From NCBI GenBank assembly GCA_000310025.1, contig FN649755.1:2110353-2163760 (forward strand): DNA of 53,408 bases. The letters run 5' to 3'. A program made the position numbers and the translations under genes. The notes beneath the pieces were generated by a model. The model saw only the letters and a program-made list of their open reading frames with translations, did not search any database and was not told the DNA's origin. The stretch comes from Ectocarpus siliculosus (taxonomy: Eukaryota > Sar > Phaeophyceae > Ectocarpales > Ectocarpaceae). Below are positions 13,901 to 53,408 of this stretch, piece after piece (the first letter of the stretch is position 1; every line of letters begins with the position of its first letter).

Positions 13901-16900
13901 AAGAGCTTGCTGACATACGGAGGCAATGGGGGAAACTGGCGGCCAAGAAACCGGCACTGCATGTGCAGTCGGGCCCACCACTTGTGTCGTCAGCAGGCGT
14001 GGCTTCAGCAGCGGAAACAACGGTGGGGACGACTACAGGTATTGGTGTTTTCCCCGACTCGTCGATGGGGGGAACGGCCGGGACGCCGTCAGCTGCAGGA
14101 ACGGTGGCACTGGAGGTTTCGTCGACCTGCGGCCAGATACCCCCCGCCGTATCAACTGGGGGGGCGATCGCAGTGCCCACATCAGCAGCTACACCGGCAC
14201 CAGCAGCGCAAGAAGCGGAGGACGCGTGCGATGAGGATGGCTGTTGGTTGGACAATGGCGACGAAGGCGGCAACAGCAACGGCGGCAGCGGCGACGGCAG
14301 CTTCGTGGCGTTGTCTGCGGGTGCGGGTGCGGGTGCGGGTGCGGGTGCGGGTGCGGGGCATCCCGGCGCCCATCCGACCGTGTACAATGGTATCTGCGTG
14401 GTGCGGGACGATGGGGGTAATGCCAGGGCTGGACATTCGATCGTGGCTGGGAGGGTGCGGTATAAATTGAGAGACTACGTGTTCGGGGGCTAGCGTGCGA
14501 GATGACCGGTGGTTGCACCATGAGTCTACGCGCGATTCAGGCACGTTCGTGAGAATTATGTTTATTTGGCTTTCTATTTTCTGGGTCGATTTTGTTTGTT
14601 GAAAGCCATGAGTTTGAGAACTGCGTCGACGTAGGCTGTTGTGTTGCGATGCGCACGAACGAACGTGGTGTTTATGGTCTGTGGTACATGTGTTTTTCAT
14701 TTGTCAAGGATATGGTTTGCATAGTCTAGGACTTCACCGCGCCAAATGGTGCAGTTGATGTTGTTGGGTCACTGCTAGCACTGCTGTCGAAAATCATGGG
14801 GGGGGATGAATGTGATGCTGAGATGCCATGATCTTCGCCGCAGTACAAGCAGAGTTCTAGCGGACGTTCGGGTTTGATTGTTCATTTTGTTCACGTTTTC
14901 CGCGTTTTACCTGCGGAAAATGAGGAGAAGTCCTCCATTGTTGTTTGTTTGCGATTCCGCGTTTACCTGCGGAGTTTGAGGCAACTTCGTCCAATTCTTG
15001 TTTGTTTGCGATTTCGCGTTTACCTGCGGAGTTTGAGGCAACTTCATGATACTTGTCTGATTCCTCGTTGCTAGGATAAGAAATACATTTCTTGTTTATT
15101 CGCGATTCCGCGTTTTTCCCGCGGAGATCGGACGTACTTCATGATATTCGTTTGATTTCTCGTTGTTTGGATCCGAGAGTTGTTGCAGCAGGGGGGCTGT
15201 TAATCTGTTGTGTTTTGAGAGATGATGCAGCAGGGGGGCTGTTAAGCTTTTATGTTTTGGAAGATACTGCAGCAGGGGGGCTGCTAAGAAATCCATGCCT
15301 CGATGTTTGAGAAACGGCATAATTGGCGAAAGTTTCCTCTGGCGTCTTTGAACGCCGGGTTTTTAACGTTTGTCTATTTGTGCCGCATGTATTTGGTATT
15401 GATGACTGTTCTGAACGATGTATTGGAGGAAGGATTTGACATATTTTGGTAAGACATGGTTGAGGCCTATGTGCTTCCGAAGCTTATTTCAAATTGGTCA
15501 ATGAGTTGAAACACAGTTTTGTGCGAGGGTTTTGTTCGAGGTGTTTGTTGACGCGTTTTGCCAGAGTTGTCCGTCCAGAGTCTTTATGACGTGGCTCTGA
15601 TGTAATGTTGATCTTTGCTGAGTAATCTTCCAAGGATAATTCTTTGTGTTTGACTACTTGAGAATGTGGTGACGACATTTTCTCGAGAGGGGTGCTTGTT
15701 AAGACTCTTAGTGAAGTTCCATAGTCGTAGGAGGAGTAGTAACCTGAAACTTGAATATTCGATAGATCCGGGAGTTGAGATGATTTATTTGTGGATACGA
15801 AAGATGAATGGTTCTTAGATTTGTTGCCGTTTTACCTGGCGACATGTACGGAGGATCTCGTATTAGATCGTATCTCGTAACGAGTAGGGGGGCTGTTTGT
15901 GTGTGTACACGGCAGGATACAATTCTCCGAGATCTCCGAGGGGGTTACGCAGATGAGATAGATATGGGTATGATAGACAGACTTGGTGCAGCAGGCTTTG
16001 CCTCTTCTTGCTCACGTCTGTCACTCGTTAAACTCTCTAATAAGCAAGGAACTTGAGTCACTCCTTTGTGCAACACGCTCTCGACAAGAGCCCGCGAGCG
16101 GGATAACATAGTACACACGCCGACACCCCAAACAGCGGCGAATACTCATCTCTGGGAAAATTCTATTGCAACGGGATGGGTTCCCTGAACCAACACGTCT
16201 GTCCATCCATGTGTTACGTAAAACAAGACATCCATTCGACCGGACCCATCAAAGCCTTCTCTGTCCTCCGGAAGCGAGGTGTTTCGATGACTTCATGACA
16301 AGAGTTTCGGGGCTAATTGCGATTGCCACATAGCACGTGCTACAATTGTAGGTCGCCCATGAAAAACGCTCCGAAGTGACGACGTCTATACCTGTGCCCC
16401 GGCCGTATATTTTTGCTTTAAGCCGTCAGGATCATCTGCACCGTTTTCGTGCGAAGTGCTTCCGCCCCCCCGCCCCCCCCCAACAAAACGAATCCAAGCA
16501 CCGCAAGGGAAATACGATGGGGACGAAAAATGAAAGCGTCCCTGCCGATATCTGTATCAACAATGTAGACCGGCAGCGCCAGAATGGATGGAAGGAGAAA
16601 ACAACACAGACTCGCTACAATAGTGTCGAACGATCACCGCGCAGTCGATTCTGGAGCCACATAAGCTGTTGTGCACTCCTTTCATGTCGCGCTCCGACAC
16701 GTGGGCTAGATAGGTTTTGGGCGATTCCAACGTCAGATCCCTTAGTGGCGATTTAGGTATAGCAACGAATATGCGTAATATTGCTCCTACCATGAGCGGT
16801 GTGTGTGCCCGAATCATGTATGAGGAGGACCTCTGAGCAATTTGGCGGGTGCTTAGAGACAGATGCCCCTTGGCAATTGAAAACATGTGCCGGCGAAAAA

Positions 16901-26852: not shown

Positions 26853-28362
26853 ATGCCTCTCCTGGGGGCACTCTTTTTGGCACTCACCAGCGGTGCAGTG
26901 ATCGGACGCGCTTCCGGCGAAAGTGTCGAAAGCTCGGCGTGCGAGTTTTCAACGTTCCTTTCGCTCAGGTGCGGCGTTGCATGTGCACGGCGTGTCGTTG
27001 TTTTTTTGTTTTTTTCAACGAAGAAGACCGCTGTAGGATTCCGTCGGGATCGTGTGCTTCGGGAATGTTTGCCTTCACTGCTGCAAACAAGCACCCAATC
27101 GCGGGCTGTTATCGAGCAGGACCACTTCGAAAGAACCACAGCGTCCTACTCGCGTGTAGCAAGAACATTATTGCAAACAAACGTGGAGCGTGTGCGACTC
27201 CTACCTATGATGAACCCTCCCTTTCGCTTTCATTGCGGCCGGAACATGTTTGTTTCCGGTGTCTTTGCTTGTGGGCATTTTCCTTAAAGTTCAATGTGGC
27301 TGCTGTGTCCATGGGAGGTCGTCTCAGCACTTGGTCATTTGACGGCGTCGAACGAAATAAACAGCCCAATGAACTACGGTGCATCATCGACGCACCCCTG
27401 GAGTTCATGAGATGTAGACATCGAAAACGTAGTGTTGTGTTAACTTGCGGGGATCGACGTTCGAGAGTTCTCATGCACAGTGCAAAAACACATGTCGCAT
27501 GATATCGTTCGTTCATCAGAGCGGAGTGGGATGCGGACGACGAGCCGTGCCAGAAAAAGCTATCCTTCGAGCTATGGACGTTCATGCAGGCCGAGGGATC
27601 AGCCCAGAGCCCTGACGCTCAGCGCGTTCGAGCCAGCTGCGTCGAGCATGAAGAAATTGGAGTGGTAGAACTCATCACTCCCAAGGTGCACGATTGGTTC
27701 TATGTGGTGATGTTAGATTTGACTTACCGACACAACCATTCCTCACGCGGTGTTCGTCTAAGCCGAACGCAAACGTTGTTGTAAGTGGTACACACAACGC
27801 TGGACGCATCACAGCGATGCTACCTTTTCCATCTTGTCGGGAATGAACGGTACATACTCTTCATCCAAGATGGGCAATTTTATTTATTGAAAACCTACCT
27901 TCTCTGCCTCTTCATCGCCTTTGAGTGCAGGGATACACCATGTCTGACAGCGTGAGCGCGGCCCCAGGAAGCGTGGTCAGCGAGACCGACCATGCCTCTT
28001 CGTACCAGGGCGCCACCGCCATGACGTTCGAAGGTGGCCATGAAACGATTGCCTCCCGCTAGGTAGTCGGTGATAAATATATAAATCGTCAAGAACTTTT
28101 TGGCGTTACGCATGCAATACTCCCTCCGTAGATCCTGTACTCGTAGCTGCCCATCACCAATCAAAAGGCTGATGACGTCCACTGCTGCATCGATTGGTAC
28201 CGTTCGCACGAATTTTAACACGTAGCGTTCTGCGAGGACGAGAACATTGAGCGAGTTACTCGGGTTGCCTCTGTTCTGGAGGCGTACCCGCGCAACAAGC
28301 GGAGTGGCCGAACGAGGCGCCACCTTCAAAGCACCACCAGCGAGGCAGGACAAGCGCATCAA
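26853..28362 (+). other. Signal peptide and propeptide exons of the protease
   Basis: Exon 1 encodes MPLLGALFLALTSGAV, a classical cleavable signal peptide with a hydrophobic core of about 15 residues. Its phase-2 end (AG) joins the A at 27520. Exon 2 gives an acidic, Cys-containing segment (EWDADDEPCQKKLSFELW). The fourth exon ends with NKRSGRTRRHLQST: RTRR is a furin-type site, the likely boundary where the mature enzyme starts. The fourth exon's acceptor (CACGTAG, poor pyrimidine tract) is the least certain here. Confidence 0.7.
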
Positions 28363-31300
28363 GTAAGACGACCTCGACTATTGTTGCATTTGGTGGCATC
28401 GTGCAGATCAAAAGGTTGCGGCAAGACAACAATGTTTGCTCTTTGGATTGAAGATGTGGCGACATCAACCTCGACATATTTAACGGATTCCCGCCAGTAA
28501 ATCAACTAGTTCCCTGCCTTGAAAACGGTTGGCAAAGCACGTGGGGGCCGTTTTAACCGACTTCTCAGAAAACCAAACACGTCACGTTTAGAATTGGACC
28601 CGTCGCACCGCCAAATGAACGTTTGCCGAACAATGCAGATGTTGAGTTTCGTACGGGTGCAACCTGATATGTCAACCACAGGTAGCCGAGCTCATCGACG
28701 GTCTGAAGAACCTCGGGTGTACGAGAACAACGGGGGAAGATCAAAAACTCTGCGTTTTGTCAGACAGCTTCAACTACTTTGGCGATGCCGCAACCCTGAA
28801 GGATTCCGGAGACCTGCCCGAGGTCGAGGTTGTCAAGGTACGACACAGGTGGATGTCGACCCACAAGGACCTGGATCGTTCGATCCTTAAACCGATTGGG
28901 TTACTGTAGTTTCTATTGAACAGTGATGTCGCACATTACTCGAAGGTTTGCAGGTTCTCTTCTCGTTCTCCGAAACGCCGGACAAAGATGGTGACAACAC
29001 GAACTACGGGCAACGACAAACATACAACCCAAGTCTCGTGTTGGGTAACAATTTCCTGATGACCACACACAGAGGCTGTTATCAGCAGGTATCATTCCAT
29101 ATTCCATATATTGTGTTTCATAAGAGATCGATATTGTCTTGCTTAAGATATCGAAGTTCCACGCAGGGAGAATCAGTAAATTGTATCTCACGCCAAACAT
29201 CTTTGGGTGAACTGTTAGAGATGAAACATTCGCAGATTTCTACGGAGACTCACAAACGGATAGCGAATGGTGGACCCTTCAAATACCGGACAGTCTGACG
29301 TCAGTACGGCACCAATATCCGTGGAAACAGGCAAACCGGAAATTCTATGTTCTCCCGTTGGACACCACACGTCAAAAACACGAAAAGAGCCGTCGAACCG
29401 CTCACTAGCCATTGTTTGTGACGAGACACGAAGAAAAGACGCAATCCCTATTTTTGGCAAGTCTGCCACAGTTCTTGGTGTTGATCCCCGCCCCCAAGGC
29501 AAGCCACACGCAATTTTGCTCCGGGTGAAATTGCGATCTGTGTGTAACACGACCTAAATTCTTACAAACGCGATCGACCAAGAGCCAAGCGCAGCGCCGA
29601 CACGCAAGCTCGAGATGCCCCTTATAACCCATTCCCTTGATGTTCGCTGATGTTGGTGACTAAAAAACAAATGCGCGTACTCTGTCATTTTCCAGGAAAT
29701 CCCCGAAGGCTATGAGGGCGTTGACGAAGGTGCGTGCGTTTCTATCTTTGGTATGTTGACGCATGTATGCACGTGCGTTCTACGTCCCATCGATTCTTGA
29801 TGCCATTCTGCACGCTGTGTCCGATTTAGGAACGCCAACCCCTTCGTCATTGGGTTACTCGCTGTACCTGTACCACCATCCCGTGAACCTATTAGCAGCA
29901 CGGTTCAGCTCAGGTCCCACTCTCCAGCTGAATCTACATGTGCGCGTGTTGTAACCCACGAAAGAGTGAAACGATTGCTGCACCCGCGCCTTAAGTATGA
30001 ACCACAAGCAAGCACAAAGGAGGAAAGGGTGAAAAAAATAGTACGAGTAGATAGATATCTCGGTAGACGTGTGATTTTTTGTTTCATCGTACCTGCCGTT
30101 TCTGTTTTCAATCTGGAGAATGAGGGTACGCCGCCCCCTCACGGTGCCCAGGGTCACGGCCTTGAAAATACCTTGCCGTTTTTACCCAAACTGAGACGAC
30201 GTAGTTCCGATGGCCAACTGGTGGTCGATGCAAAGAAAAACAATTACGCGCGTACACCTGTGGTCTAGTGCGGTATTTTGGACTGAGAAACTCTTTCTCT
30301 GTCCTCTGCACATGCTTCATCTTGTCTTCATGCACGCAAGTTTCACTTTTACACTCTGCACTAGCGTCAAGAGTTGGCGTTCTGATACGCATCCACCGCA
30401 CGTGTTTGGTATCTAGGATCTGCCATGATAGAGCTCGCGTACGATATCGCGTCTGGAGCAACGTTCAAGTTCAGCACGGCCTATGGTGGCGAGCAGGTAC
30501 GGCGGGTAAACCGGACAACTTTTCGTCTGAGCCTACATCCCCGCGTGACTTGATGATATCTGTACACAGCGAAAGCTTGTGATGAGTACTGAAAGCTACG
30601 ACAGTTTAGGCAGGTGGAAATGCAAAATGCAGCACAACTATAGGGAACCGAATGGGGATCAAACTGTCACACGTGCTGAAGTAGATAGATCCTACAGGCA
30701 CAAGGGCAGTGCACGGCCTTAGCATGCGCCGTGGAGCAGCTCACTGTCTTCGGGCTGTCGCTCGAACGCTAACGTTTAACTTTCTTCGCCTTCCCCCCTA
30801 CTTGCTGTTTTTGCCGTTTCCGACTCGCGCTTGTACCGTTTGCACTACGGCTTGCACCGCTGTCGTATGCCAAGATCTTCGCAGACAACATTGCGGAACT
30901 AGCGGGTGAAGATCATCAATGCGACGTGATCGTCGATGATTTCGTGTATGTCACAGAGTGAGTTTTCAAGAAATACTTTTTCCCCTGGGTACATACCCCC
31001 CCCCCCCCGGTGTTTTGCCATCGGGGTTGGGTTTTCGTCGCTTGGCAACGACCTTGTAAAACAAACCGCCCCCCCCCGGTGTTTTGCCATCGGGATTGGG
31101 TTTTCGTCGCTTGGCACCGACGTTGTGAAACAAGCCAATTCACTTCGTGAACTCGGCAACCAGGTTACCGTTTGTTTTTTTTTACCTCGTTTTTTTTTGT
31201 TGGCGGTAACCATAATGGTGGTGGAGTAGATCAGGTTGTGCGGGGTGGAGAACCCTCACTCCGCGCAACGGGGGATGATCGCACCACGTTGTGTCAAAAT

Positions 31301-34300
31301 GGTCAAGCATCCTCGAGGCAGTTACACAGTGCTTACAACTGTCTCTGGAAGTGAAAGCACCAGAAAATAAATTAAGTCATACGTAGCTGTCATCCGCAAG
31401 CAAGTAAGCACAAGATGTCGAACACCCTTAGCAGGATGCAGCTCACCCTTCATGCGGGTCGCCAAATACCTCACGGCGCTTCGCGCTTGGTGATGTGAGA
31501 GCCTGGTCCGGTGAGAACCCGGCGTGCTCCGTCCCGGCTTTGTAGGGATGCGAGGTCAATGGTCTAACGACTACGGCATGCACGACTATGATTACAACTG
31601 CCCCCCCCCCCCTGGGTACACACGCACGTTTGTTTGTTGATGGTAGGCCGAAAGCTGTGCTGCTCTTCGCTGCTGATCCATCACAGAAACACAAGCAACG
31701 CTCTCTCGCTGAGCCGTCACGGGTGATGCCGCCTGGTGTTGCGAGCTAGGCATTAACTGGCCGGCCCGCGCCACGTCTCCCATTATTTGATAAATATCGT
31801 ATGACCCTTCGCTGGGCAAATCCTCAACGTTTCAACCGGGCACTCCCGTTAATTGCAGTGTACTTTCAAGCATGCAGAGGCGTTCATTGGGGAAATATAT
31901 CGTCAAATCAATTCTGGGATTAATCGTATATTTTTATGGCCACATCAACATCAGTAATGCTCTACGCAGCCACCTCAAATTAATGTATCCCGACACGTGC
32001 CAGCATTCCCCCACAACTGTTCATCAGATTTGACTTTATTCCCTGCCTGAACACCTCGAGCCGACGGCCATAATTTTCGTAGTTTGGGTTAATCTACCAA
32101 CGAGCGACTTACCGCATGCTGCCGGGCAACAGTACCGCGCTCGTGTTCCAGGAGGTAGCCATCGGTACGTTGCTCTAGTTAAGCAGTTCCGTGGTACCCT
32201 GCCTCCGTCACACACCACAGGCCCGCCTTCCGCGACGGCGTGGTTGCCAAAGAGGTGGACGCTGCCGTCGGAGGAGGAAGTCTGTACTTTTCGAGCGTTG
32301 GAAACAACAACGGCCTCGACGCTGGAAATTTGGCGGGAATGCGGTTCCCCTCGGTAAGAACCAACCCGACCGTACCTCGTTGTTGTCTTTTTCCATCCTT
32401 TGGTGACGTTCTGGGAAGTGTGGTCTGGTTTGTTCGCTGGGCGGGGCTGCCTCTCGTTTGATTGCCGCGATCTTGTCACGCGGTGTTGTTCAACTGCGCT
32501 GAAAAAGGTGTCCTGGCCGGACTGTCACTGCAGTCGAGTGCACTTCGTGGACGAGAGACTCCTTTTGGCAGGGAACAAAAGCAAACGTTGTGTCCGGTTT
32601 GCGCTTTGTCCGGATGCAGGACTTCGAATGTGCGTCGGGATTTGGGCCAGTTTTCACCGGTATTGGAGAGTGCGGCACGAGTGTTCCATCGCACGTGTTC
32701 CAACCCGACCTGGGCACGAACGATATCAACAGGTAAGTGTGCGATTAAGAATAAACGGCACACACCACTTCTGGGAACGATATATGTCGAACTGGGCCGC
32801 AGTAGCCGTGCGCTTTCGCTTCCTATTGCTTGAAAGCGATAGCATTTATCCTGTAACCTTGACTCATAAAAGCGCTGCGGAAACGTTGTTCCAGCCTCGC
32901 CCTTTGTCTGTTTTTAATCCGAGGGAGGTTGGCCGCGCAGCTCCACTTGGGTTGTGATTCTTTCTTTGTGCGGAATCGGAATAAACATACTTTTTTGAAG
33001 GATTGTGTGCTTGTCCCTTTCCCTGCCTGCGGTCTTGCCCGACTGTTTTCTACCCTTCCCGAAACTCGATTGCCATTCTCGAGGTATCTGCTTCCGTTGG
33101 ACGCAGTCGCGCCCCAGAATAGGCTGTACGTGCACTGGGACGCTGATGGCGGGACCGACCAAGACATCATGATCGTCATATACTTCCAAGAGTTTGGCTC
33201 AAACACGTATTCCGCTCTCATAGACGGCGACGCCGTAAGTATGCCAATCATCAGTGCACAGCTGGTAAAGAATGTTCGACTGGTAAATCGTCGACGCTGC
33301 TTCGCTTCGCGGCGTCCTACAGTTTAGATAACCCGAAGTTGTTTTGACGATCGGCTCCGCGCTCAGTGAGAGAATGTACGAAGCTTCCGAAATTCCAATA
33401 CCGGTATCGATGGCGCCTCGGATCCCAGTTAGCGCTTGCAACTATCATACTTGGGACAAAGCAACGGTTCGAGGGGTATCCATACCCCTCTCAAGGTTAC
33501 CCTTCCCCCTCGCAGATGGGGAGCTGGCTATCATGCCCACCTCCCTGCATGAAACTGCCCCGGCTTTTGTTGCGTGGAAGGCGCAGCAGGCGTCTGAAGT
33601 CGATTTTGCGGTAGGCGTTCCAAAAGCAGATCGTCACGAGTTCTCGTTTGCACGATGCAACATCCCTCTTCATGGGCATCTCTGCGTGCTCCACACCACC
33701 AGGTTTCTGGAGGCTCTCCGGTGGACTGGATTGATTTTTTCCCCTCCATCGTCGTAAGTTAACGGGGTGGTTTCGTTTGATTTTGTATTTGCTGTCGTCT
33801 TCTTGGCCGCCTATGGACTCGCGCTTATCAAGCCTCCCTTCCCCCACCAACGTGTGGGTTTTGGCTTTTCTAAGAACGGCAGGCAAAACAAAGTTATACG
33901 GGAATAGTACGTTTTACACTCTGTCATACTCTCCGTATCTTACATTTACCTGATTCCTTGCCCATCCCCTCTTTCGTGCTGCTCACTGCCCCCTTCGACT
34001 GTAGGGCAATTATTACCTGCAAATTATCCACTTTGGTCCAACGGTAAGTCTCGCCTGGTTTGTGGTCGGGACTCTCGTTCGGTCGGAGGTGCTGTGTTGC
34101 CGGGTTCCAATGCTTAATCTTGGCGGTAATCGCTGCGTTTCTCAGCCCCAATGTGGTGGTAACGGCGGAAGTTGCCCCAAGTTGATTTCGTTCATCGACG
34201 GGCTACCCCTTCCGGCTTGCTGCATGTGCATCATAGAGGCCTCCAGCAAAGCCGACCCCTGTAAGGGTTAGCATGAACATATTCGTGAGATGAGTGTCTC

Positions 34301-37300
34301 CAAGTATTGTATGCCGACGCATTATATTCCTTTCTCTATCATCAGGCGGCATACATTGATGCGGACTTTCTCCTGCTATCTAGCGGCGGTATCGGAGGGC
34401 ATACCGACGGAAACATCTACGGTCACGCATGTGCCAAGAACTGTGTCGCCGTCGCAGCCATCAATTGGGTGAGAGCGTTTTCCCTCGACCCACAAGTGAA
34501 TCAGCCGCGAAACATTTCTTAATCACCAACATGAACGGTAGCAGATCAGAAATTAGACGGATTTTCTCTAAAACAGCCCCACCGGACGCTCTGTTGGTAT
34601 TTTGTATCAACACTGCAGTAAGCTCACTCGTGGGCAGCAAGATATTCATCAAATGACATATACACGGTGTAACTCATGGTACTGGTAGTTTTTTCCATAT
34701 AACCATGTCGTACTTCGCGGTTTGGCATCTGGCAGCAAGAAGGAGATGGGCCTGGCGGTTCTTTCGAGGACCCCGAAACCAGCAGAGTGGAGTATTTTTC
34801 ATCCACGGGACCATGCATCGTAGACCCTGGCAGCGGTAAAGAGACCAGGGAAAAGCCGACAACTTGCGCGGCTGACGGCCTCGCGACATCGACAACCGGT
34901 AGGTGAATTGTAGTTTAGTTTTGCGTGCGCGCCACAAAAACTACCAGCGCGATGTACACGTTACCAAAAATGAGCTCGATAAAAAGCACTTTCTAGAAAG
35001 CACTTGGTTTGCCCGAAGTGTTGAATAGATTAATGGGCTTGATTTTGACTTGTGTTGCGTATTTTCCCAACGTATTTCCAGCCTAAAGGACGATGCTGTA
35101 GGGATAAAAATAAATAAGGATGTAAAGCTAAGACCGGAGTAACAACATGATCTCCCGCCCTACCTAACGTGTGGTTAGGTAGCAAAGTTAATTACGCAGA
35201 TTCTGCTGGTCGTGAAAGCATCTCAGCTGAACCTGTGCGGCTTTGTGGGTGTGCACTTGGCGTTGAAAACGTATTATTCCTGGCAATGCTGCATAGGTTT
35301 GCCTTCCGAGTCTCAAAAAGCCCTTTTGCTATCTCGGGAATTTACTTAAGTGCCATTTTACTAATCTTGTGTGCGCGTGATCACCCCTGTAACTGGCGCC
35401 AGTTTAAACACCTTTCGGGTGTGAGTTAAACGTTTGACGTATCAGCGCCGACCTCCCACCTGTGGTTGTTGCCTTTATTCTTTGATCGCTGTGTGAGTCC
35501 ATTGGCTACTTGTCATGGGGGACTTAGAGTCGCGATTTCTCTCAACTTTTTCGAATATCGCGTTGAGTTGTACGTCGTCCACAGCAGTAAGTAGCAAACC
35601 TCAGCACGCTGGCGCGCATCATGCCCTACTTCAAGTTCCATCGGTTGTGACGTGACAGGATTCTCTGAATTCTTGGGCACTTCGGCGTCGGCACCGGTGG
35701 CGGCGGCGATCGCGACCATCGTAAGGGCTGCATGCTTCCCGAGGGTGCGTCGAGTCAGCAGTCTTTACCTTCCAGACTAAGTTAATTGGTGTGTGTGGTG
35801 TAAAGAACGTTGACATTCTACGTTGTGTAATAGCACTCGATTAATTTGGTGATATTTCTGGATATGGATCGAATCGTCGTAGAACCTGTCGTTGGTTTAC
35901 CCAGCATCCGCGCCGTGAACATCTCGACAGGTGGTGGAGTACGGAGAAGTGATGGAGATGCTGACCAACTATGAGTACACAGTCGACTATACTAATGACG
36001 CCGATGGAGCTGCCGAGACATGGGGCAACGAAGCTGGACACGGGATTATTTCCGCCGCCCAGATGCTCGCATGGGTGGAGGAGAACTGTAGCGAGGCCTG
36101 CTCAGGTAAACTGGCAAGAAAAGGAGTGGTGATAGTATCCGGCTACGGCGGGACTGGTCCAGCGCACCCAATTATGAATCGATCGGGGCAGTTGATTGTG
36201 CAGGCACGAAGAGTAACGCATTATAAGAAGATAGTCAAGGGTCATGACGAAGCTGAGGCAGTACTTCTGAAAGATGAAGATCGGAAGGAAGACTGACGGC
36301 GAAAGGTGTAAGGCGAAACAAAGAAAAGTAACTAGAGGAAGCAGGCAGACACGACTCGAAAATATATTGTATATGGAACGAGGTAGGAGACCGAGCATCG
36401 ACAGTGCGGGTCGCGAGATCCAGGAACAAAGGAAATGAATCAAAGGTAGAATGGAAAGGGAAGCCTTGCTATGTTTTGAGGAAGGGAAGCAAAACACCAC
36501 GAGATATTCACGGGGGCATAGATTCGTCCCTCTATAAAAACCTGCAGGCTGTCCCACGTAGACCATTCGACGGCCCCACCCCGCACCCCCAACAACCCGC
36601 TTTTGCCTTCTTTGCCTTTTGGTTGTTCTCAGGAGCATCCGGATCAACCCCGGCGCCAACACCTACCACTGGTGAGTTTAAGCCAGAAAGGTTTTGGGGT
36701 TGAGACTCCACGGTGAGATCGTTACGGCCCTGCGTTTCCCGTGCACGAAGAAGCATCCGCCGAAAGCTGTCCGCATGGAACTGAAATTAATCCAGGCAAA
36801 AAAACGGCGCCAGCCGCCAATGTCAAAACCTCTGCTGCAACTACACGTTCGACACGGCCCGCCTAGTGCCCGGTTTGACCACATGGTGTTCTGGATGTAG
36901 CACGCCCTTGCACCACAATGAAGGTCATCGTCTGGTCAACACAATACGCCCCACTCTCGTTCATCATTTGCATGCAACACAGATGGATACACGCCTGTTC
37001 CGACGCCGTCACCCACCAAGGCCCCTACACCGGCCCCTACCGAGAGTTAGATTCGATTCTTCTCTCGGTTGTTTTGGATGCTGTCGCTGTGTGTTCTGTC
37101 CTGTTCTGTACGACTAGTCTACTCCAATGGTCCCCGTATGGCCTAATAACGTTTTCGACATTGGCAAGACAAAAGGTCAAGAGGTGTTCGAAGCGCCGCT
37201 GATCTCGTCCTCCGTTTGCCACGCTTATATATCAGATACGGCGGGACACACTCCGGTACCGACTCCCGCCCCCACCACCATGAGTTTCTGATTTAGTCAA

Positions 37301-40300
37301 GTTTTGCCTTTCGCAGAATCGATCGTGGAAATGGTGACGTTCGCATTGCATGCATAGGACGGAGCGACAGGAACACCGGGAGCGTTCCGATACTGATGGC
37401 CACACCGAATTTCTTCGGAGATTCCTTGTCCAGATTTCTAGAAGAATTGAGAGTTCTCTGGCAGAGGTGTAGAACCTCATGAGTTTCCGGTGTTTTTCGC
37501 TGAAACACCACGCGTCGCCAAGTCTATGGTTGTAGGGCTACATTTGCGTCCTAACCCTGCGTGTTTCAATTTGCGCTGTACGTGCCCAGCTCAACCGGGC
37601 TCCCTCGGCTGTTACAAGGATGATCCGTCCGACCGAGTGCTGACGGCAATGTGGTCGAGTCCCGTCATGACTCCTTCGGTAAGTACGCTAATCACGCCTG
37701 TCCGAGACGCCCCTACCAGAGCTTTGAGCAGCGGGCGACTTGGATGTGGCGACCCCGTCAACAATACCCTCGCGGCTGAACAATCGAATAAAAGTCCGAC
37801 GTGGATACGTACTTTTCGGTTCGCAAGAGACTGTGCTGCACTGATTGCGATAGTTTATGTAGGTACACTATGCTACCATGCCGAACGGCGCCCTAGAAAG
37901 ATCCAAAAATTGGCTTTCGGACGAGAGTGTTTCGTAGGGGTTATCCGGCGGGTACTTCGGGGTAACAGGTAAACTTGGGTAAATCAACATATATACACGA
38001 CTGGGTTGGCTCTCAAGCTTCGTGAAACGTCTTCACAACGCACACAGCCAGTACCACCATTGAACATTCGCACTGGCCGACATGGAGTATCTCCTTGGTG
38101 TTGTTCATTCGCCTGCTCGTGTTATCTTGGACGTTTTACTTCCTTAAAACCAGGTCTGCGCCGCCTACTGCCACAGGGAGTCTGCCAGCTATGCCTACTA
38201 CGCAATACAGTACGGCGGCGAGGTGGGTGTAGCCCCATCAGGGCTTCTTCGCCAGAACCCTCTTGGCCAGCTGGCACCAATCCTGGTTTGGTTTGCCTTA
38301 TTTTTTTTCCTTGGTCCAGTTGGCACGACCACGTATAAAAGGCCGTACTCGAGTCCCCATTTCCGATTACCTGTATCCGCACTTTGCGTGATCGTCCTCG
38401 AGCTTAGCGTCCCGGAACCGGTGCCCATGGTGCTTCGGCCCTTCGATGCAGTGTTGGTGCCAAGACACTGACATCGACCTCAGGCACGGAGAAGCCACAT
38501 GCGACTACGCTTGCTCGGGGGATGCGTCGATTTCGTGCGGTGGGTTCTACGCCTTTACCTTGTACGATCTCGAAGGAGCCAATCTGCCCACTCCTCCTGC
38601 GGACGACAACTACGTGGGGTGCTTTGCGGACGACCTGCAAGACCGCGTGCTTGGTGCCGAGACTTCATCCAGTTCTATGACCTCAGAGGTGCCGGTATTC
38701 GTTTTCCAAAAGAAGTAACTGGCTATACATCCACGCGCACACGTCAAGGGAGTATTATTAATCCACCGCTGGTTGTTTTTGGAACTCTGGCACTCACAAA
38801 ATACGTGATGCTTGTACTACCAGCACGTGTGGTGTGCTTCCCCGACTACTTATACCTCGTACTGTAGTTAGACTATGTTGAGCACGTGCATGCCATGCGT
38901 TGGACTCTCGTCTCAAACTCACCTAACCCTGTTCCCACTGTTTCCCCGACTCTACTGACTTCCTTTTTCAAGGCCTGTGCTGACTACTGCGCCAACGAGT
39001 CCCCCCGCAACATGTACTACGCCACGCAATACGGCGCACAGGTGTGTACGCAAACTGTGTAGCACATTTCTTACGTAGAATTAGCTCTAGGTCGTGACCC
39101 AACGCGATAGCGTGGGCATCTTTTACAGTTATTCTTTGCAACTCACCTCAGATCAAGTTTCACTTCGTATTTGTTTTTCATATTGGAATTGCTTGTCGCA
39201 GAGCCACCCGTTTCTGGCTGATGGGTTCGCCCCGTTTCTTATTTAGGTGTACGTGAATAGTAGCAAACGCCACAAGTGCTCACGATACTTATCCATCCCA
39301 CGGTGGCCACGTACTTTCTCTCCGCTTTGCCTCCGCCCAACCATATGGCGAAGGGGGTAAACTCGACCCTTGCACTCCACGGGCCGTTTGGAGTGCTCCA
39401 AAATTGGTCCCAAGTTTTATTCACCCGACGTCCGACTCGACAACTTCAAACTTCTTTTTTTCTTCGTGATGCTCAAATAGAGTGATTTCTTTCTCCCGCA
39501 TTCATTGATGTGTTTGCGCAGAACAAACTTTGGCTCGAAACGACCAGTTCGGGGTTATTTAAGTTCCTCCGAGGCCGTTTTGCCTGAATATTCCAAGTTT
39601 CTGAGATCGTCTCAAACACGTTTGACCGCGAAATCAACCTTCACGATATTGGGAATTCTGTAAACTCTTCCGGCGCTTCAAACGACCCATTATGTGTATG
39701 TTTGGCGGCTAAATCAAGGGAAAAGTTAGTGGTATATGTTTCTCCTGTCGGTACTGTACGGACCCAGTAGCGGCCCCTAATATTGCTGGCCTGCGACTCC
39801 GTAGCTAATTTTTGCTCTTGCCAAGCGTTAAACTGCTCACGGTCGATCTCTCGTTCCCTCTAAAAGTGTTGGTGCGCAGAAGAAGTCGACCTCAGGCACG
39901 GGGAGGGCAGGTGCGCCTACGCTTGCACCGGTGATGCCAAAACCACATGCGGTGGCTTCGAGGCGTTTGATCTCTTTGAGGTCAACCCGCTATCCCCGCC
40001 CACGGAAGACTACTATGTGGGATGCTTCGCGGACGACCTAGAAGACCGCGTGCTCGAGGACATGATCTCGGCCGTAGACATGACCCTAGAGGTAAACCGG
40101 TACTTGAAAGGCACCCGGACTGTGCAGTACTAGGTAGACGATGTTTCAACCTCAACCCCCCCTGTTCAATCAGAATACTCTGGGCTGATGAGGTGGCTGG
40201 CCAACAGTAAGCACTGCCTGCGTGTACGAAGGATTGACGAAACAATGCTGACCCTCACTTCTCTGCCCCGTGTCTTGTTCGGCGCTGCAGGCGTGCGAGA

Positions 40301-41206
40301 ACCACTGCACGGAGAGGAACAAGCCTTTCTTCGCCCTTCAGTATTCAGTAGAGTGAGTCCAAGATTATGCAGGAAGGTTGCGTATTAAAACATGGCAAGA
40401 TCGAGGTATCTTTAAAGCAACTGCTGTCAACATCCCGGGAGGGTCTGGGCAGTGTGCAGTGGGTTGCATTAACCACACTTGGTCCAACCCCTCCTCCACA
40501 TGGTGCAATGACTCGAAAGATACGTGACCAAAGTAAAATGACGAAGGCAAGCAACCATTAAGTACGCGACCCTCTTCCGTGGGAAGACCATGTCACACCC
40601 TACCTGCTCCACACCAACCCAATTTGACGTGCGCTAGTAGAGACGAGGCCTAAGGAACCTCCACTGCATACCGTAGACACTAAACATGGAGTTGAGCTTC
40701 CTGTTAGGTGCTACAGTTCGAAAAAAACACTTCTTGTATTTGCCGCCGCGCACGTCCTTTCTCCGACAGATGCTGGTGCGGTGGTTGCGAGATATTGGAT
40801 GATGGACCCGACAAGTACGACAGGCACGGCGCCGGCGTTTGCAACGACTTCCCATGCTCAGGCGACCCAACTCGCCAGTGCGGGGGACTCGTCGCGTTCT
40901 CGCTGTACGAGCGCGACACTTGCGGTAAGTTCGAAGTATTATAAAGCACACAAACCGTTGGGTGGTTCTTTACATCGATTTATCATGCGGCTGGCAGCGA
41001 TCTGATGCGATAGATAGTATAGTAAGCATGCAGCACGGCCTGGACAGGATACACGAAAGCACCGAAATGTTGCAATTTCATGGAATCCTTGCCACCATCG
41101 GTGGAGAGTGGAGAAGTGTGCGTGTGATAGTCTGCCGCATCCTCTCCCTCCAACGACTTATCTCAAATTCTGCCACACGTGACCTTCCGCCGATGTTGCA
41201 GTCTAG
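26853..41206 (+). CDS. Secreted subtilisin-like protease with three C-terminal WSC domains
   Basis: Extracellular S8-like protease of about 1000 residues. Exons: 26853-26968, 27520-27685, 27931-28033, 28226-28362, 28682-28837, 29696-29729, 30417-30496, 30875-30957, 32221-32353, 32620-32732, 33084-33234, 33703-33753, 34005-34043, perhaps one from 34146, 34346-34468, 34736-34898, 35659-35720, 35931-36105, 36633-36671, 36983-37045, perhaps 37236-37283, 37590-37678, 38154-38222, 38452-38688, 38973-39041, 39867-40091, 40291-40352, 40770-40924, 41202-41206. Phases agree at every junction except around the 34146 exon, whose only good donor gives phase 1. Order: signal peptide, propeptide, catalytic domain (Asp about 202, Glu about 237, Asn about 320, Ser about 558), Pro/Thr linker, WSC x3. 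Inferred role: wall or matrix protein processing while bound to polysaccharide. Two internal exon choices and the final 5-base exon are the weakest points. Confidence 0.85.
28682..36105 (+). other. Catalytic domain of the protease (S8-like)
   Basis: Family landmarks in order: LCVLSDSFNYFGD (28682-28837; Asp of the D-[ST] motif), EGYEGVDEG|SAMIELAYDIASGA (junction 29729/30417; takes the place of the usual HGT.VA....AP), CDVIVDDFVYVTE (30875-30957), PAFRDGVVAKEVDAAV...SLYFSSVGNNNG (32221-32353; oxyanion Asn), NIYGHACAKNCVAVAAINW (34346-34468), VEYFSSTGPC and KPTTCAADG (34736-34898), FLGTSASAPVAAAIATI (35659-35720; nucleophile Ser codon 35682-35684), then GNEAGHGIISAAQML (35931-36105). The layout fits the large subtilase group with VxSDS and DEGRAM-type motifs. 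The usual His after GTSxAAP is Val. Confidence 0.82.
30994..31610 (+). mobile_element. SINE-like retroposon in a protease intron
   Basis: 617 bp insertion flanked by the direct repeat CCTGGGTACA (30984-30993 and 31611-31620), a target-site duplication of the length produced by LINE machinery. 5' part: two ~66 bp minisatellite units (GGTGTTTTGCCATCGGG...). Middle: a GGTTACCG/CGGTAACC inverted repeat separated by poly(T) runs, then about 400 bp without coding potential. 3' part: GCTCCGTCCCGG...ACGACTACGGCATGCACGAC, then a run of 13 C. The 3' part resembles the LINE 3' end at 54-170. It is the inverted equivalent of units in 52226-53408. It lies wholly within the intron 30958-32220, in sense orientation. 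Confidence 0.88.
36633..37283 (+). other. Pro/Thr linker exons of the protease
   Basis: Small phase 1-1 exons coding flexible linker: 36633-36671 (GASGSTPAPTPTTG), 36983-37045 (GYTPVPTPSPTKAPTPAPTE) and probably 37236-37283 (TAGHTPVPTPAPTTM). The last two are related, as if one exon was duplicated. Both end at weak donors (A|GTTAGA and A|GTTTCT). Without splicing, the second exon would stop at once (GAG AGT TAG). Such linkers are typically O-glycosylated in secreted proteins. Confidence 0.6.
37590..38580 (+). other. WSC domain 1
   Basis: Encoded by 37590-37678 (GSLGCYKDDPSDRVL), 38154-38222 (VCAAYCHRESASYAYYAIQY) and the first part of 38452-38688 (CWCQDTDIDLRHGE...CSGDASISCGGFYAFTLYDL). This is the eight-Cys WSC pattern, a putative carbohydrate-binding module common in brown algal wall proteins. 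Confidence 0.88.
38600..39985 (+). other. WSC domain 2
   Basis: Starts in exon 38452-38688 (NYVGCFADDLQDRVLG), continues in 38973-39041 (ACADYCANESPRNMYYATQY) and 39867-40091 (CWCAEEVDLRHGEGRC...CTGDAKTTCGGFEAFDLFEV). Introns fall at the same two places as in domain 1. The third exon's acceptor is TCTAAAAG directly before TGT TGG TGC. Confidence 0.88.
40000..40924 (+). other. WSC domain 3
   Basis: Starts in exon 39867-40091 (DYYVGCFADDLEDRVLE), continues in 40291-40352 (ACENHCTERNKPFFALQYSV) and 40770-40924 (CWCGGCEILDDGPDKY...CSGDPTRQCGGLVAFSLYER). The second intron is phase 2 here (GTAGA|GTGAGT, then A TGC TGG), one base off the phase-0 position in domains 1 and 2. The chain ends after DTC by splicing to a TC TAG at 41202-41206. 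Confidence 0.88.
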
Positions 41207-44283: not shown

Positions 44284-46658
44284 GCGCATCGGCCGTCGTC
44301 TCTGACGTCGGAACATTGGACACAACCATCCCCACCACCACTGGAGGCAGAGGAGTCCACGTGGGGGGCACCGCGCAGAGAAAATGGTGGAGTGGATGGG
44401 GGTGCAGCATCCACCAGAGGGGGCCGATCCGGAGAGCAAGCAGGACGAAACCGAGAGGAAGCAGTAGAGGGACCGCTGGCGGGAAAACGTGTGGAGGAAA
44501 TCGCACGGAATATGAGGGGTGAGGCTCACTGGGGCTTCTCCCATTAGTCCTCTTACCCACCCCAGGCCGGTTGCTCCGTCCGCAAATATGTGCTTGCCCT
44601 GCTACACGCCGTCTCTTCCTCCCCCCCCCTATATCGGTTTCACCCGTTCGATCCCATTCTCGTTACATGTTGTATCCCTCCGGCAGCCCCAGGCAGGAAA
44701 ACATCAACACCCCGCGCCCACCGCTCGTCCTACAGTAGAACCCCTTCCCCTCCATGTAGTTCGCTCTCTTTCCTGGTGTATCTCACCCCTTGATTTCCCC
44801 TTTTCCTTCTCCTTCGAGTTCTGATGGTGACCTTGATAACCATTTTCGTCCCCGCCCAACTCTCAGCCCACCCGGTCAAACGGTCTAACCGCCAACGCTT
44901 GCGAAACAGGCGTACAACCCCCCCTTCACCGTCCCCATCCAAACAGCAACGGCAGAGGCCTCCCACGACCCGTCCGACCCCGCATCCGTGTATGTAGACC
45001 TTCTCGTCAACGGGGACCCCGCCCCGTTCGTGTTCCGCATCCCTCCCAAGAAGGCGCCCCACCGGCAGCCGCGATTATCCGACGGCGGCGTTTCTGAACT
45101 GCAAGGAGAGACGGGAGAACAACAACAAGGGAGGGAAGGGGAGGAGGAGGAGTGGGGTTTGGAAGATGAGTGGGAGGAGGAGGAGGAAAATATGAAGGAG
45201 GCGATCGTGGCGGTGGCGGCAGCGTGGTGCCGAGAGTTCGGGGCCAACCGACCCGAAGACATGGCTTTCGTGGAGGCCGAGGTCGAGAAGGCCGTTGAGT
45301 CGGCCGCGGCGGCGGCGGCGGCGGCGTCAGCAGCGGTAAGGCCAACGGTGGCGACGGTCGGCGTCAACGGAAGGCAGCATACCCCGACGGCAGCTTCGGG
45401 GGCTCGCGAAGAAAGACATTCGGCAACAGTATCCGGTGCCCGGGAGCTGCTGCAGAGGAAAGAGTCGGAGTTGTCGGACAAGGGCGGCGTGCGGCCGAAG
45501 CGAAGCGATCGCGAGGACAGCAGCAGCTGCAGGAGGACGAAGAGGGGAACGGCAGGGGAGCGCTTGACGCTATCATCCGTGCTTGCGCCCGACGTGAAGA
45601 AGGGCAAGAGCATCTTCTGGGTGAAGGAATTCGGTGTACACAGCATGTCATATGCTTACCTTCGTTGTCGCGCATTCTCGGTCTTGTAGTTGTGAAGCAT
45701 TCTCGATTGTGTAGCCACACGATAAAGGTCGTCCGTGTCCCCGTCCCTTCTTGAGAGGTCGTATCCCCGAAACCAAGAGCAAACATGCCCCGCTAACCCC
45801 CGCACGCAACGGTGATGAACAAATCGCGTGCAGGTGGATCCCAGTCTTCCGGAGGCATACGTGACGGCAGGCTCCTCCGCGCTCGAAATTTCGGAGCGTT
45901 TTCGCCGGACACACAACCTAGGGCCGTCGCAGGTTCCCCTGGTGCGGACACGATGTGACCTGACGCTCCGAACATCTATTCATGAATCTGTTCAGACCTT
46001 GGTTGTTGTTTTTCTCGCCTCGTCTGTTCAACACCTTTGAAGTTTGCCGTGGTGTTGTCCTCCGACTCCTCTTAACTGCGTTCTATTTGTTGCGGTTCTC
46101 ACCGAGTACATACATCGAAATGAGATACCGCGAAGAGAGAACCGACAACGTCAACAGCCACGGCAACACTACCACCACCACCACCACGCACGATCTCGAA
46201 CAACGCTTTATTCTCCACCTGGCGGCATCTTATGAAAAGGTGGCATGGAAGCTGCTTGACGCGTACCCGGCGCAGATGGAGGCTGCCAGGAGGGACGGAA
46301 CGATGCTACCGGCTAGGGTAACGCTGCGCCGCGCAGCCTGCAAACGAGAGGTGCAGGCAAGGAGACGCCACACCTGCGGCAAAACGTTTACATAGAAAAT
46401 ATAGTATTGAAAAGCGGCGAAAACCGTCGACAATACTGTACTGGTGTTTTTGGGGGAATTTCTTGGGAACTCTGAGTGGGAACTGAACGGCACTAGAATC
46501 TCGACGTTCTTTCACTTCAATCAAGCACCGTTCGTTGTCGTGGGATAGCGTCCTCTCTCGTGCAGACCGCGAGCTCGAGGAAAGCGTGGGTACGGTACGC
46601 GGTCAGTTGGTGGATACTAAAAAGCTCCACGCTGGCCGTCCCCGCTCCCGTCCTAGCG
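44284..46658 (+). pseudogene. Truncated duplicate of the 5' half of gene A
   Basis: Parallels 8056-10448 along its whole length, introns included, with roughly nine bases in ten identical by eye. It starts inside the first seen exon of gene A (at the GCATCGGCCGTCGTC landmark) and stops 45 bp before the membrane-helix exon, so both ends are missing. Equivalent exons: to 44518, 44947-45626, and one from 45834. Exon 44947-45626 keeps the length of its counterpart (680 bases) and an open frame (VYVDLLVNGDPAPFVFRIPP, AAWCREFGANRPEDMAFVE), but the donor after GTGAAG is GA instead of GT (45627-45628). A GCG microsatellite has expanded at about 45303-45327. Probably non-functional. Confidence 0.8.
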
Positions 46659-52225: not shown

Positions 52226-53408
52226 GGGGGGTGTACTTATAGCCGTGCATGCCGCAGTCGTTAGACCGCTGACCTCGCAACCCTACAAAGCGGGAAGCAC
52301 GCCGGATTCTCACCGGACCAGGCTCTCACATCACCAAGCGCTAAGCACCGTGAGGTATTCGGCGAGTCGCATGAAGGGTGCGCTGCATTCTGCTAAGGAT
52401 GTTCGGCATCTTGTGCTTACTTCCTTGCGTACGGATGACAGCTGCGTGTGACTTAATTTATTTTCTGGTGCTTTCACTTCCAGAGACAGTTATAAGAATT
52501 GTATAACTGCCTCGAGGGCGGTTGACCAATTTAGCACACGTGGTGCGACTATCCCCCTTGGGCGGAGTGAGGGTTCTCGACCCCGCACAACATAATCTAC
52601 TCGACCACCATTGTGGTCACCGCCAAAAAATAAAAAATACAACTACAAAAGCCGTAACCTGGTTGCCGAGCTCACGAAGTGATCGGCTTGTTTTACAACG
52701 TCGTTGCCAATCGACGAAAAACCCAACCCCGATGGTAAACACCGAGCAGCAGCGGGGGGGGGGGTGTACTCATAGTCGTGCATGCCGTAGTCGTTTGACC
52801 ATTGACCTCGCATCCCTACAAAGCCGGGACGGAGCACGCCGGGTTCTCACCGGACCAGGCTCTCACATCACCAAGCGCGAAGCGCCGTGAGGTATTTGGC
52901 GAGTCGCATGAAGGGTGAGCTGCATCCTGCTAAGGGTGTTCGGCATCTTGTGCTTACTTCCTTGCGTACGGATGACAGCTACGTATGACTTAATTTATTT
53001 TCTGGTGCTTTCACTTCCAGAGACAGTTGTAAGCACTGTGTAACTGCCTCGAGGAAGCTTGACCATTTTAACACAACGTGGTGCGATCATCCCCCGTTGC
53101 GCGGAGTGAGGTTTCTCGACCCCGCACAACATGATCTACTCGACCACCATTATGGTTACCGCCAAAAAAAAAACGAGGTAAAAAAAAAAAACGGTAACCT
53201 GGTTGCCGAGTTCACGAAGTGAATTGGCTTGTTTTACAACGTCGTTGCCAAGCGACGAAAACCCAATCCCGATGGCAAACACCGAGTGGGGGGCTTGTCT
53301 TACAACGTCGTTGCCAAGCGACGAAAACCCAAACCCCGATGGCAAACACCGGGGGGGGCGGCTTGTTTTACAACGTCGTTGCCAAGCGACGAAAACCCAA
53401 CCCCGATG
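52226..53408 (-). mobile_element. Head-to-tail array of SINE-like units with minisatellite
   Basis: Two units of about 530 bp (roughly 52226-52755 and 52766-53290) lie in direct repeat, inverted relative to the intronic copy 30994-31610. In element orientation each ends with GTCGTGCATGCCGTAGTC (plus-strand reading) and a C run; plus-strand G runs at 52226-52232 and 52756-52765 mark the tails. The 5' side holds ~66 bp minisatellite units (GGCTTGTTTTACAACGTCGT... ending CAAACACCG), one in unit 1 and three at 53225-53408 running off the window edge. An inverted GGTTACCG/CGGTAACC pair with A runs lies inside each unit. No ORF is conserved between units. Confidence 0.82.

Follow-up and report, generated by a model that had tools for sequence, protein, structure and literature searches.

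A candidate brown algal subtilase with glutamate at the place of the catalytic histidine and a tail of three WSC domains

Can a protease domain that would be labeled 'subtilisin-like' operate with an active site that belongs neither to the S8 subtilisins nor to the S53 sedolisins? This question is raised by a locus in the brown alga Ectocarpus siliculosus, located within a 53,408-nucleotide stretch of contig FN649755.1 (hereafter called the window). A preliminary description made from the sequence alone had proposed that positions 26853-41206 of the window hold one gene for a secreted, S8-like protease fused to three WSC domains, and overall this interpretation is partly supported by our analysis. 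The reading that we favor, with moderate confidence, is that of a secreted serine protease with the subtilase fold and a serine-carboxyl active site, which would be held on wall polysaccharide by its three WSC modules. Central to this reading is a Glu residue that aligns with the catalytic His of subtilisins and is conserved among bacterial relatives of the algal domain.

One candidate gene for protease and WSC domains

The gene was modeled by hand from open frames and the raw sequence as 27 exons on the plus strand (26853-41206; Table 1), with 26 GT-AG introns that are all in phase and a product of 952 amino acids. The start ATG (26853) and the stop TAG (41204-41206) are found where the preliminary description had placed them, which confirms its observation of a gene spanning this interval. 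In order, the model encodes a hydrophobic N terminus (129 residues precede the catalytic domain in total), the ~470-residue catalytic domain itself, linkers and three WSC domains. Agreement of phase over about 27 junctions had been offered as a reason to assume one gene. The introns are indeed in phase, but the choice of exon boundaries was itself guided by phase and by motifs of the relatives, and therefore agreement in phase does not by itself count as independent evidence.

Domain searches of the spliced product identify WSC in three stretches (PF01822; 129.7 bits, E = 4.9e-38, cut-off 27.8) and Peptidase_S8 at residues 442-555 only (30.1 bits, E = 4.1e-7, cut-off 21.8), such that both domain assignments of the preliminary description exceed their Pfam cut-offs. 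When single frames were searched, two of the five frames with WSC exons matched WSC (38392-38718, E = 5.5e-5; 39864-40133, E = 2.7e-4; both below cut-off), and of the five frames with S8 exons one matched S8 weakly (35595-35780, E = 0.045). We also compared a profile of 24 bacterial rows, from which the algal sequence was excluded, with the six-frame open stretches of at least 12 amino acids in the window. All eight matches at E <= 1 (best 3.8e-8, weakest 0.77) are on the plus strand, and each lies over a predicted exon of the S8 domain. Their profile positions (26-60, 70-96, 97-122, 121-158, 285-315, 323-375, 370-399 and 422-445) are collinear with their coordinates. Eight of the 13 catalytic-domain exons have a match of their own in this search, the others being S2, S6, S7, S8 and S9, and the spliced protein scores 238.8 bits against the same profile.

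The region between the catalytic and WSC domains is where two adjacent genes might instead be drawn, with a protease gene that stops near 36300 and a distinct three-WSC gene whose start lies before 37590. The fusion was modeled from genomic sequence, the donors of linker exons L2 and L3 are weak (GTTAGA and GTTTCT), and a second three-WSC tail elsewhere in the genome (described below) suggests that the tail may be an independent module. However, phase 1 is kept at every linker junction, three Pro/Thr exons lie within the gap, and no signal peptide was seen by eye upstream of the first WSC domain. A scan for Pro/Thr-rich, stop-free AG..GT segments of phase 1/1, with a 50% cut fixed after the exons had been seen, yielded nine clusters on the plus strand and none on the minus strand, and three of the nine are L1 to L3. 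We consider it quite improbable that two genes are present. A single gene for protease domain and WSC tail, as originally proposed, is supported at the sequence level by the model, the profile matches and the linker exons.

Individual boundaries are open to adjustment. The S12 donor at 35720 has an in-phase alternative at 35744 with a nearly equal profile score (238.8 versus 238.2 bits). An extra exon encoding 'VLFSFSETPDKDG' (28954 on) was rejected, given that the sole nearby donor seen is out of phase and that the aligned relatives carry no such segment. Within the S4-S5 intron resides one copy of an inverted 0.6-kb repeat (30998-31611 and 52754-53361; 94% identical), which has a tandem unit of 66-69 bases.

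Table 1. Coordinates of the modeled exons and domains within the window
Feature	Position	Strand	Content	Basis
Exon e1	26853-26968	+	ATG and signal-peptide-like N terminus (MPLLGALFLALTSGAVIGRA)	Signal peptide judged by eye
Exon e2	27520-27664	+	N-terminal, propeptide-like	Phase and splice sites only; least certain, with e3
Exon e3	28237-28362	+	N-terminal region	Phase and splice sites only
Exon S1	28682-28837	+	Catalytic domain start; Ser156-Asp157 codons 28760-28765 (Asp32 region)	Model, profile match
Exon S2	29696-29729	+	Putative Glu192 codon 29726-29728, His64 position, motif DEGSAM	Best of 92 in-phase candidates
Exon S3	30417-30496	+	Catalytic domain	Model, profile match
Exon S4	30875-30957	+	VIVDD; Asp240-Asp241 codons 30935-30940 (Ser125 region)	Model, profile match
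Exon S5	32221-32353	+	SSVGNNNG; putative oxyanion Asn275 codon 32303-32305	Model, profile match
Exon S6	32572-32732	+	Part of insert between oxyanion Asn and Ser half	Model; no profile match of its own
Exon S7	33084-33234	+	Insert	Model; no profile match of its own
Exon S8	33703-33753	+	Insert	Model; no profile match of its own
Exon S9	34005-34043	+	Insert	Model; no profile match of its own
Exon S10	34346-34468	+	IYGHACAKNCVAVAA	Model, profile match
Exon S11	34736-34898	+	Catalytic domain	Model, profile match
Exon S12	35659-35720	+	GTSASAP; putative nucleophile Ser529 codon 35682-35684	Model, profile match
Exon S13	35931-36105	+	Catalytic domain end	Model, profile match
Pro/Thr linker exons	L1 36633-36671, L2 36983-37045, L3 37236-37283	+		Model, Pro/Thr segment scan
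WSC domain 1	37590-38688	+	Exons 37590-37678, 38154-38222, first part of 38452-38688	Pfam
WSC domain 2	38452-40091	+	Second part of 38452-38688, exon 38973-39041, first part of 39867-40091	Pfam
WSC domain 3	39867-40924	+	Second part of 39867-40091, exons 40291-40352, 40770-40924	Pfam
Last exon, proposed	41202-41206	+	5 bases, Val and stop TAG	Weak; gene may continue

Conserved residues and predicted fold of the catalytic domain

Relatives of the N part of the algal domain are carried by three plasmid records, and the one from Mitsuaria is annotated as an S8 family serine peptidase. A scan of a contig collection with an alignment of relatives returned 392 pattern-matched stretches, 260 of which encode a relative, and the best 80 of these 260 provided 79 loci that were kept. 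Residues were then counted in 84 rows, comprising 83 open reading frames (ORFs) of 82 loci and the algal model. The Glu of the DEG motif is present in 83 rows (one gap), as is the nucleophile Ser (one gap), and the oxyanion Asn is present in 82 (two gaps). The Asp32 region has Ser in 83 rows (one gap), followed by Asp in 82 and Asn in one (one gap), and the Asp-Asp pair of the Ser125 region occurs in 82 rows (two gaps). No member with His at the place of Glu is found among the aligned rows. The DEG search pattern finds no match in 78 of the 83 ORFs (DVIVDD is the sole pattern matched in 76, and two match neither), and therefore the constancy of Glu is not an effect of search selection.

When 149 genomes from a single class were searched with a profile, with at most 10 candidates per genome scored, at least seven full-length members were recovered in six genomes (E <= 9.3e-110, among the matches listed). 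The matches that follow (E = 2.9e-18) cover the C-terminal part only, as in ordinary S8 proteins. Both EG and IVDD are present in all five profile-found loci that were printed, one of which is again the gene of locus L044 (see below); a sixth locus missed the script pattern and was not judged. The 24 bacterial rows used for tree construction derive from Actinomycetota, Acidobacteriota, Bacteroidota, Verrucomicrobiota, Kiritimatiellota, Pseudomonadota and Rokuibacteriota, and two of the 330 stretches in a viral scan encode a relative.

Identity between the algal catalytic domain and bacterial S8 relatives (Mitsuaria sp. 7 WP_067283605.1; L044 of Cyclobacteriaceae) is ~28-35%, and rises to as much as 51% over a short segment of the N part. 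The bacterial proteins share DEGxAM-like and VIVDD motifs, the same acids, and a long insert between the oxyanion Asn and the Ser half. They differ in being encoded by single ORFs, whereas the algal gene has many exons, and in the domains that accompany the protease: the seven relatives scanned carry T9SS (type IX secretion system) sorting, RTX, laminin-G-like, cadherin-like or P-proprotein domains or no extra domain, and none carries WSC. In a relative from a Saprospiraceae bin (L069), three Laminin_G_3 stretches reside beside the subtilase domain and form another lectin-like tail. Of the 37 columns that are invariant in the 24 bacterial rows, the algal domain retains 34, and those of the proposed catalytic columns that fall within the 37 are all retained. 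The exceptions are a change of Gly to Asp, a Val in place of Ala at the second residue ahead of the oxyanion Asn, and one gap. The many introns of the algal gene argue against contamination.

Subtilisin positions were assigned by using hhalign with nine ordinary S8 domains picked by the [H/N]G[T/S] motif. Alignment of the whole domain paired the Ser half only, and the N half was then aligned alone. In the latter alignment EG pairs with HG, which places Glu at the catalytic His beside a shared Gly. Similarly, Ser-Asp pairs with Asp-Thr of the Asp32 segment, and Val-Asp-Asp pairs with Asn-Met-Ser of the Ser125 segment. For the Asp32 position, an ungapped profile alignment gives Ser with Asp one residue on, and a one-residue shift is possible.

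These assignments can be compared with the motifs of characterized classes. Savinase motifs are given as LDTG, HG, NLS, ASGN and TS, and sedolisin motifs as IT, EWDLD, NVS, SSGD and TS (PMC11593635). The corresponding motifs of the Glu-type family are mostly LSDS or LSDG, then EG, VDD, AGN and TS, with LSDS and VGN in the alga. Segments 31-34, 64-65 and 123-125 together make up the acid-base zone of savinase (PMC11593635), and the conserved acids of the Glu-type family sit in the equivalent segments. With the S8 subtilisins this family has in common the fold (predicted for the bacterial relatives), Asn155 and Ser221, but by alignment Glu replaces His64, Ser with Asp next to it replaces Asp32, and Asp replaces Ser125. 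With the S53 sedolisins and kumamolisin it has in common the subtilase fold and, by alignment only, Glu at the base position. However, sedolisins carry Asp four residues after this Glu (80-EWDLD-84; PMC11593635), where the 24 bacterial rows have Met (21), Leu (2) or Ile (1) and the alga has Met. Likewise, sedolisins have Asp in the oxyanion hole, where all 24 bacterial rows and the alga have Asn. Because the His of S8 is missing, as are the +4 Asp and the oxyanion Asp of S53, the Glu-type family fits neither class.

A Pro-kuma_activ prodomain is a feature of S53 sedolisins, and the algal model yields no Pfam match to it at E <= 1; divergent prodomains can escape such a search. Siezen, Renckens and Boekhorst reportedly described, in 2007, a prokaryotic subset that resembles sedolisins and has its catalytic Asp on a beta-strand. 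The Glu-type family is probably this subset. Both have Glu for His, and the conserved Asp of the family examined here is at a predicted strand end; in contrast to the reportedly prokaryotic subset, the algal member is a gene with many introns and WSC domains.

Subtilase classes have been named D-H-S, ED-S and E-H-S (PMC9549277; PMC3937732), and the available text of these articles does not include a subset with Glu and a strand Asp. An E-H-S member is active and loses activity when Ser is changed to Ala (PMC3937732), and thus altered triads in this clan can work.

Several observations weigh against the serine-carboxyl reading. The Asp-Asp pair belonged to a search pattern, such that its constancy is partly selected, and in one of the 24 bacterial rows the first Asp is replaced by Asn. 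Pfam S8 was seen in six of the seven bacterial relatives scanned, with none in L077. The algal branch is very long (3.04) and its tree placement is unsure, and therefore neither a donor nor an age of transfer can be given. Moreover, the algal Glu hangs on one 34-base exon, S2, that has no profile match of its own. At least five of the in-phase alternatives to S2 encode His before Gly, and the best of those listed (30119-30143) gives the domain 230.8 bits against the bacterial profile, compared to 241.3 bits with S2. The profile itself has Glu at this place, which makes the scoring of S2 against an HG exon partly circular.

The alternative exon bears most directly on whether the protein might simply be an ordinary Asp-His-Ser subtilase of family S8 fused to WSC domains, whose base would be supplied by that exon choice or by the His of a GH motif. 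Such a protein would account for the Pfam S8 match above cut-off and for the subtilisin fold of the bacterial relatives (below), and the GH His is present in 81 of the 84 rows (two Gln, one gap). However, this His lies within the Ser half, where two rows have Gln instead, and it is the near-invariant Glu that pairs with His64 in the profile comparison. Among the 92 in-phase exon candidates between S1 and S3, S2 ranks first (the next scores 235.6 bits), and its lead of 10.5 bits over the HG alternative counts for S2 with the circularity just noted. We regard an ordinary S8 enzyme as an unlikely explanation.

Searching the Protein Data Bank (PDB) with the sequence of the algal domain by itself returned no matches, and the domain is assigned to the subtilisin fold through two bacterial relatives, whose AlphaFold2 models adopt this fold. 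Predicted local distance difference test (pLDDT) and predicted template modeling (pTM) scores are 84.5 and 0.88 for L044 and 87.9 and 0.90 for L030. By VIA-align, the model of L044 superimposes on subtilisin BPN' (1sue) with Z 34.1 and a root-mean-square deviation (rmsd) of 2.2 over 254 amino acids, and that of L030 on subtilisin (1suc) with Z 30.5 and rmsd 2.5 over 241 amino acids. The best 50 VIA-align rows listed look like S8 types, and the absence of S53 from them is uninformative. The S8-like character assigned in the preliminary description therefore holds for the fold, but, by profile alignment, not for the His64 place. In subtilisin, His64 is near the start of a helix; Glu opens a helix in both predicted models (77-88 in L044; 64-75 in L030), and a predicted strand (E120-123 in L044; E107-110 in L030) either ends with the Asp pair or precedes it.

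When L044 was submitted to Foldseek, the top rows were CspC-CspA and CspB, and kumamolisin-As was also among the matches listed. CspC and CspA are called pseudoproteases (PMC12880746), and this likeness, the non-canonical triad and the long algal branch are consistent with a pseudoprotease that has kept the fold and lost catalysis, and whose role in the wall would be binding or sensing. A dead site would be expected to drift, whereas several bacterial phyla and the alga all retain the nucleophile Ser, the Glu and the oxyanion Asn. We regard loss of catalysis as a minority possibility that deserves some weight, and an active serine-carboxyl enzyme as the better account of this conservation.

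The WSC tail and other elements of the window

The three WSC units contain 8, 8 and 9 Cys residues, and up to eight conserved Cys residues are described for this domain (PMC12879055). In a search of the genome (189 Mb, 492 contigs; 150 of 244 WSC candidates scored), at least 102 WSC exon matches were found at E <= 0.001. The profile start is at 46-49 in 36 of these 102, which is the intron place used in the window gene, where two WSC exons start at profile positions 48 and 49. A search with the third WSC domain uncovered the second three-WSC tail of this genome (locus L122, contig C21, minus strand). This tail is identical to that of the window gene at 159 of 227 aligned residues (70%), with exons 1b and 2b outside the 227, and the boundaries of its exons 1b, 1c/2a, 2b, 2c/3a, 3b and 3c match the window gene as far as printed; exon 1a was not seen. 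A Pro/Thr-coding tandem repeat is located downstream of the L122 tail, and therefore the L122 gene, and perhaps the window gene too, may extend past the third WSC domain.

A genome search with the S8 domain matched the window locus only; the sequence of the N-terminal partner in L122 was unreadable, and so we do not claim that the domain is single-copy. A second match (C26; E = 3.95) was set aside as its frame reads by eye like an alpha/beta hydrolase, with no DEG motif seen. Other S8 matches in the genome number eight, none of them within 100 kb of a listed WSC match, in an exon-level search that misses weak exons. The weak exons of the window gene itself were likewise absent from the exon-level listings.

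WSC domains are considered putative carbohydrate-binding domains in brown algal PR-1 proteins (PMC12879055), and WSC proteins are counted among brown algal cell-wall proteins (PMC8307928). The PR-1/CAP proteins likewise have a further domain fused to WSC, but the partner is a different one, and no S8-WSC fusion is named in the available text (PMC12879055).

Elsewhere in the window, direct repeats of 244 bases (11726-11969 and 15891-16134; 98.8% identical) flank an ORF (12283-14493) whose copia-type gag match is just below cut-off (E = 9.5e-6, 25.6 versus 27 bits), and from its sequence the segment 11726-16134 looks like a young long terminal repeat (LTR) element. A reverse transcriptase ORF that appears non-LTR-like by eye is on the minus strand at 673-2202 (RVT_1, E = 1.8e-33). 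A 2.4-kb segment is present twice in direct orientation (8062-10448 and 44286-46658; 91% identical), and an ORF in one copy (8687-9481) has no Pfam match at E <= 0.001.

A proposed wall-bound serine-carboxyl protease

On the reading that we favor, the N-terminal region would act as a signal and propeptide, such that the protein is secreted and the propeptide removed. Ser529 would be the nucleophile, Glu192 would serve as general base in the place of subtilisin His64, one or more of Asp240, Asp241 and Asp157 would be the partner of Glu192, and Asn275 would contribute to the oxyanion hole. Because base and partner would both be carboxylates, activity at acid pH is expected, as in sedolisins, which are called acid proteases (PMC6278154). 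A flexible Pro/Thr linker would join the catalytic domain to the three WSC modules, which may attach the enzyme to polysaccharide, either in the cell wall or on another organism that has a wall. By analogy with other WSC proteins, such anchoring is plausible. An enzyme kept in the wall would process wall proteins or meet attackers. The available portions of the macroalgal literature that we examined name WSC proteins of the wall but no wall-bound protease, and serine-protease genes belong to the most strongly induced genes of a red alga under infection (PMC8307928).

More tentatively, and with less confidence than we place in the enzyme itself, we propose that clan SB includes a third working active-site plan that is neither S8 nor S53. 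This plan would combine a Ser nucleophile, a Glu base at the His64 place, an acid partner at the strand end of the Ser125 place and an oxyanion Asn. It would have been taken up by an alga-like eukaryote, being otherwise seen here only in bacteria, and made wall-bound by fusion to three WSC domains. A literature search revealed neither an S8-WSC fusion nor a eukaryotic subtilase with Glu and a strand Asp in the titles and abstract openings of the articles listed, with most subscription journals outside its coverage. Fungal sedolisins, which likewise have Glu, do appear among the subjects of these articles.

The locus illustrates that the label 'subtilisin-like' can mask an altered active site. 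It also offers a testable case in which the subtilase fold may catalyze with carboxylates placed unlike those of sedolisins, in an enzyme that may have been recruited to a polysaccharide wall.

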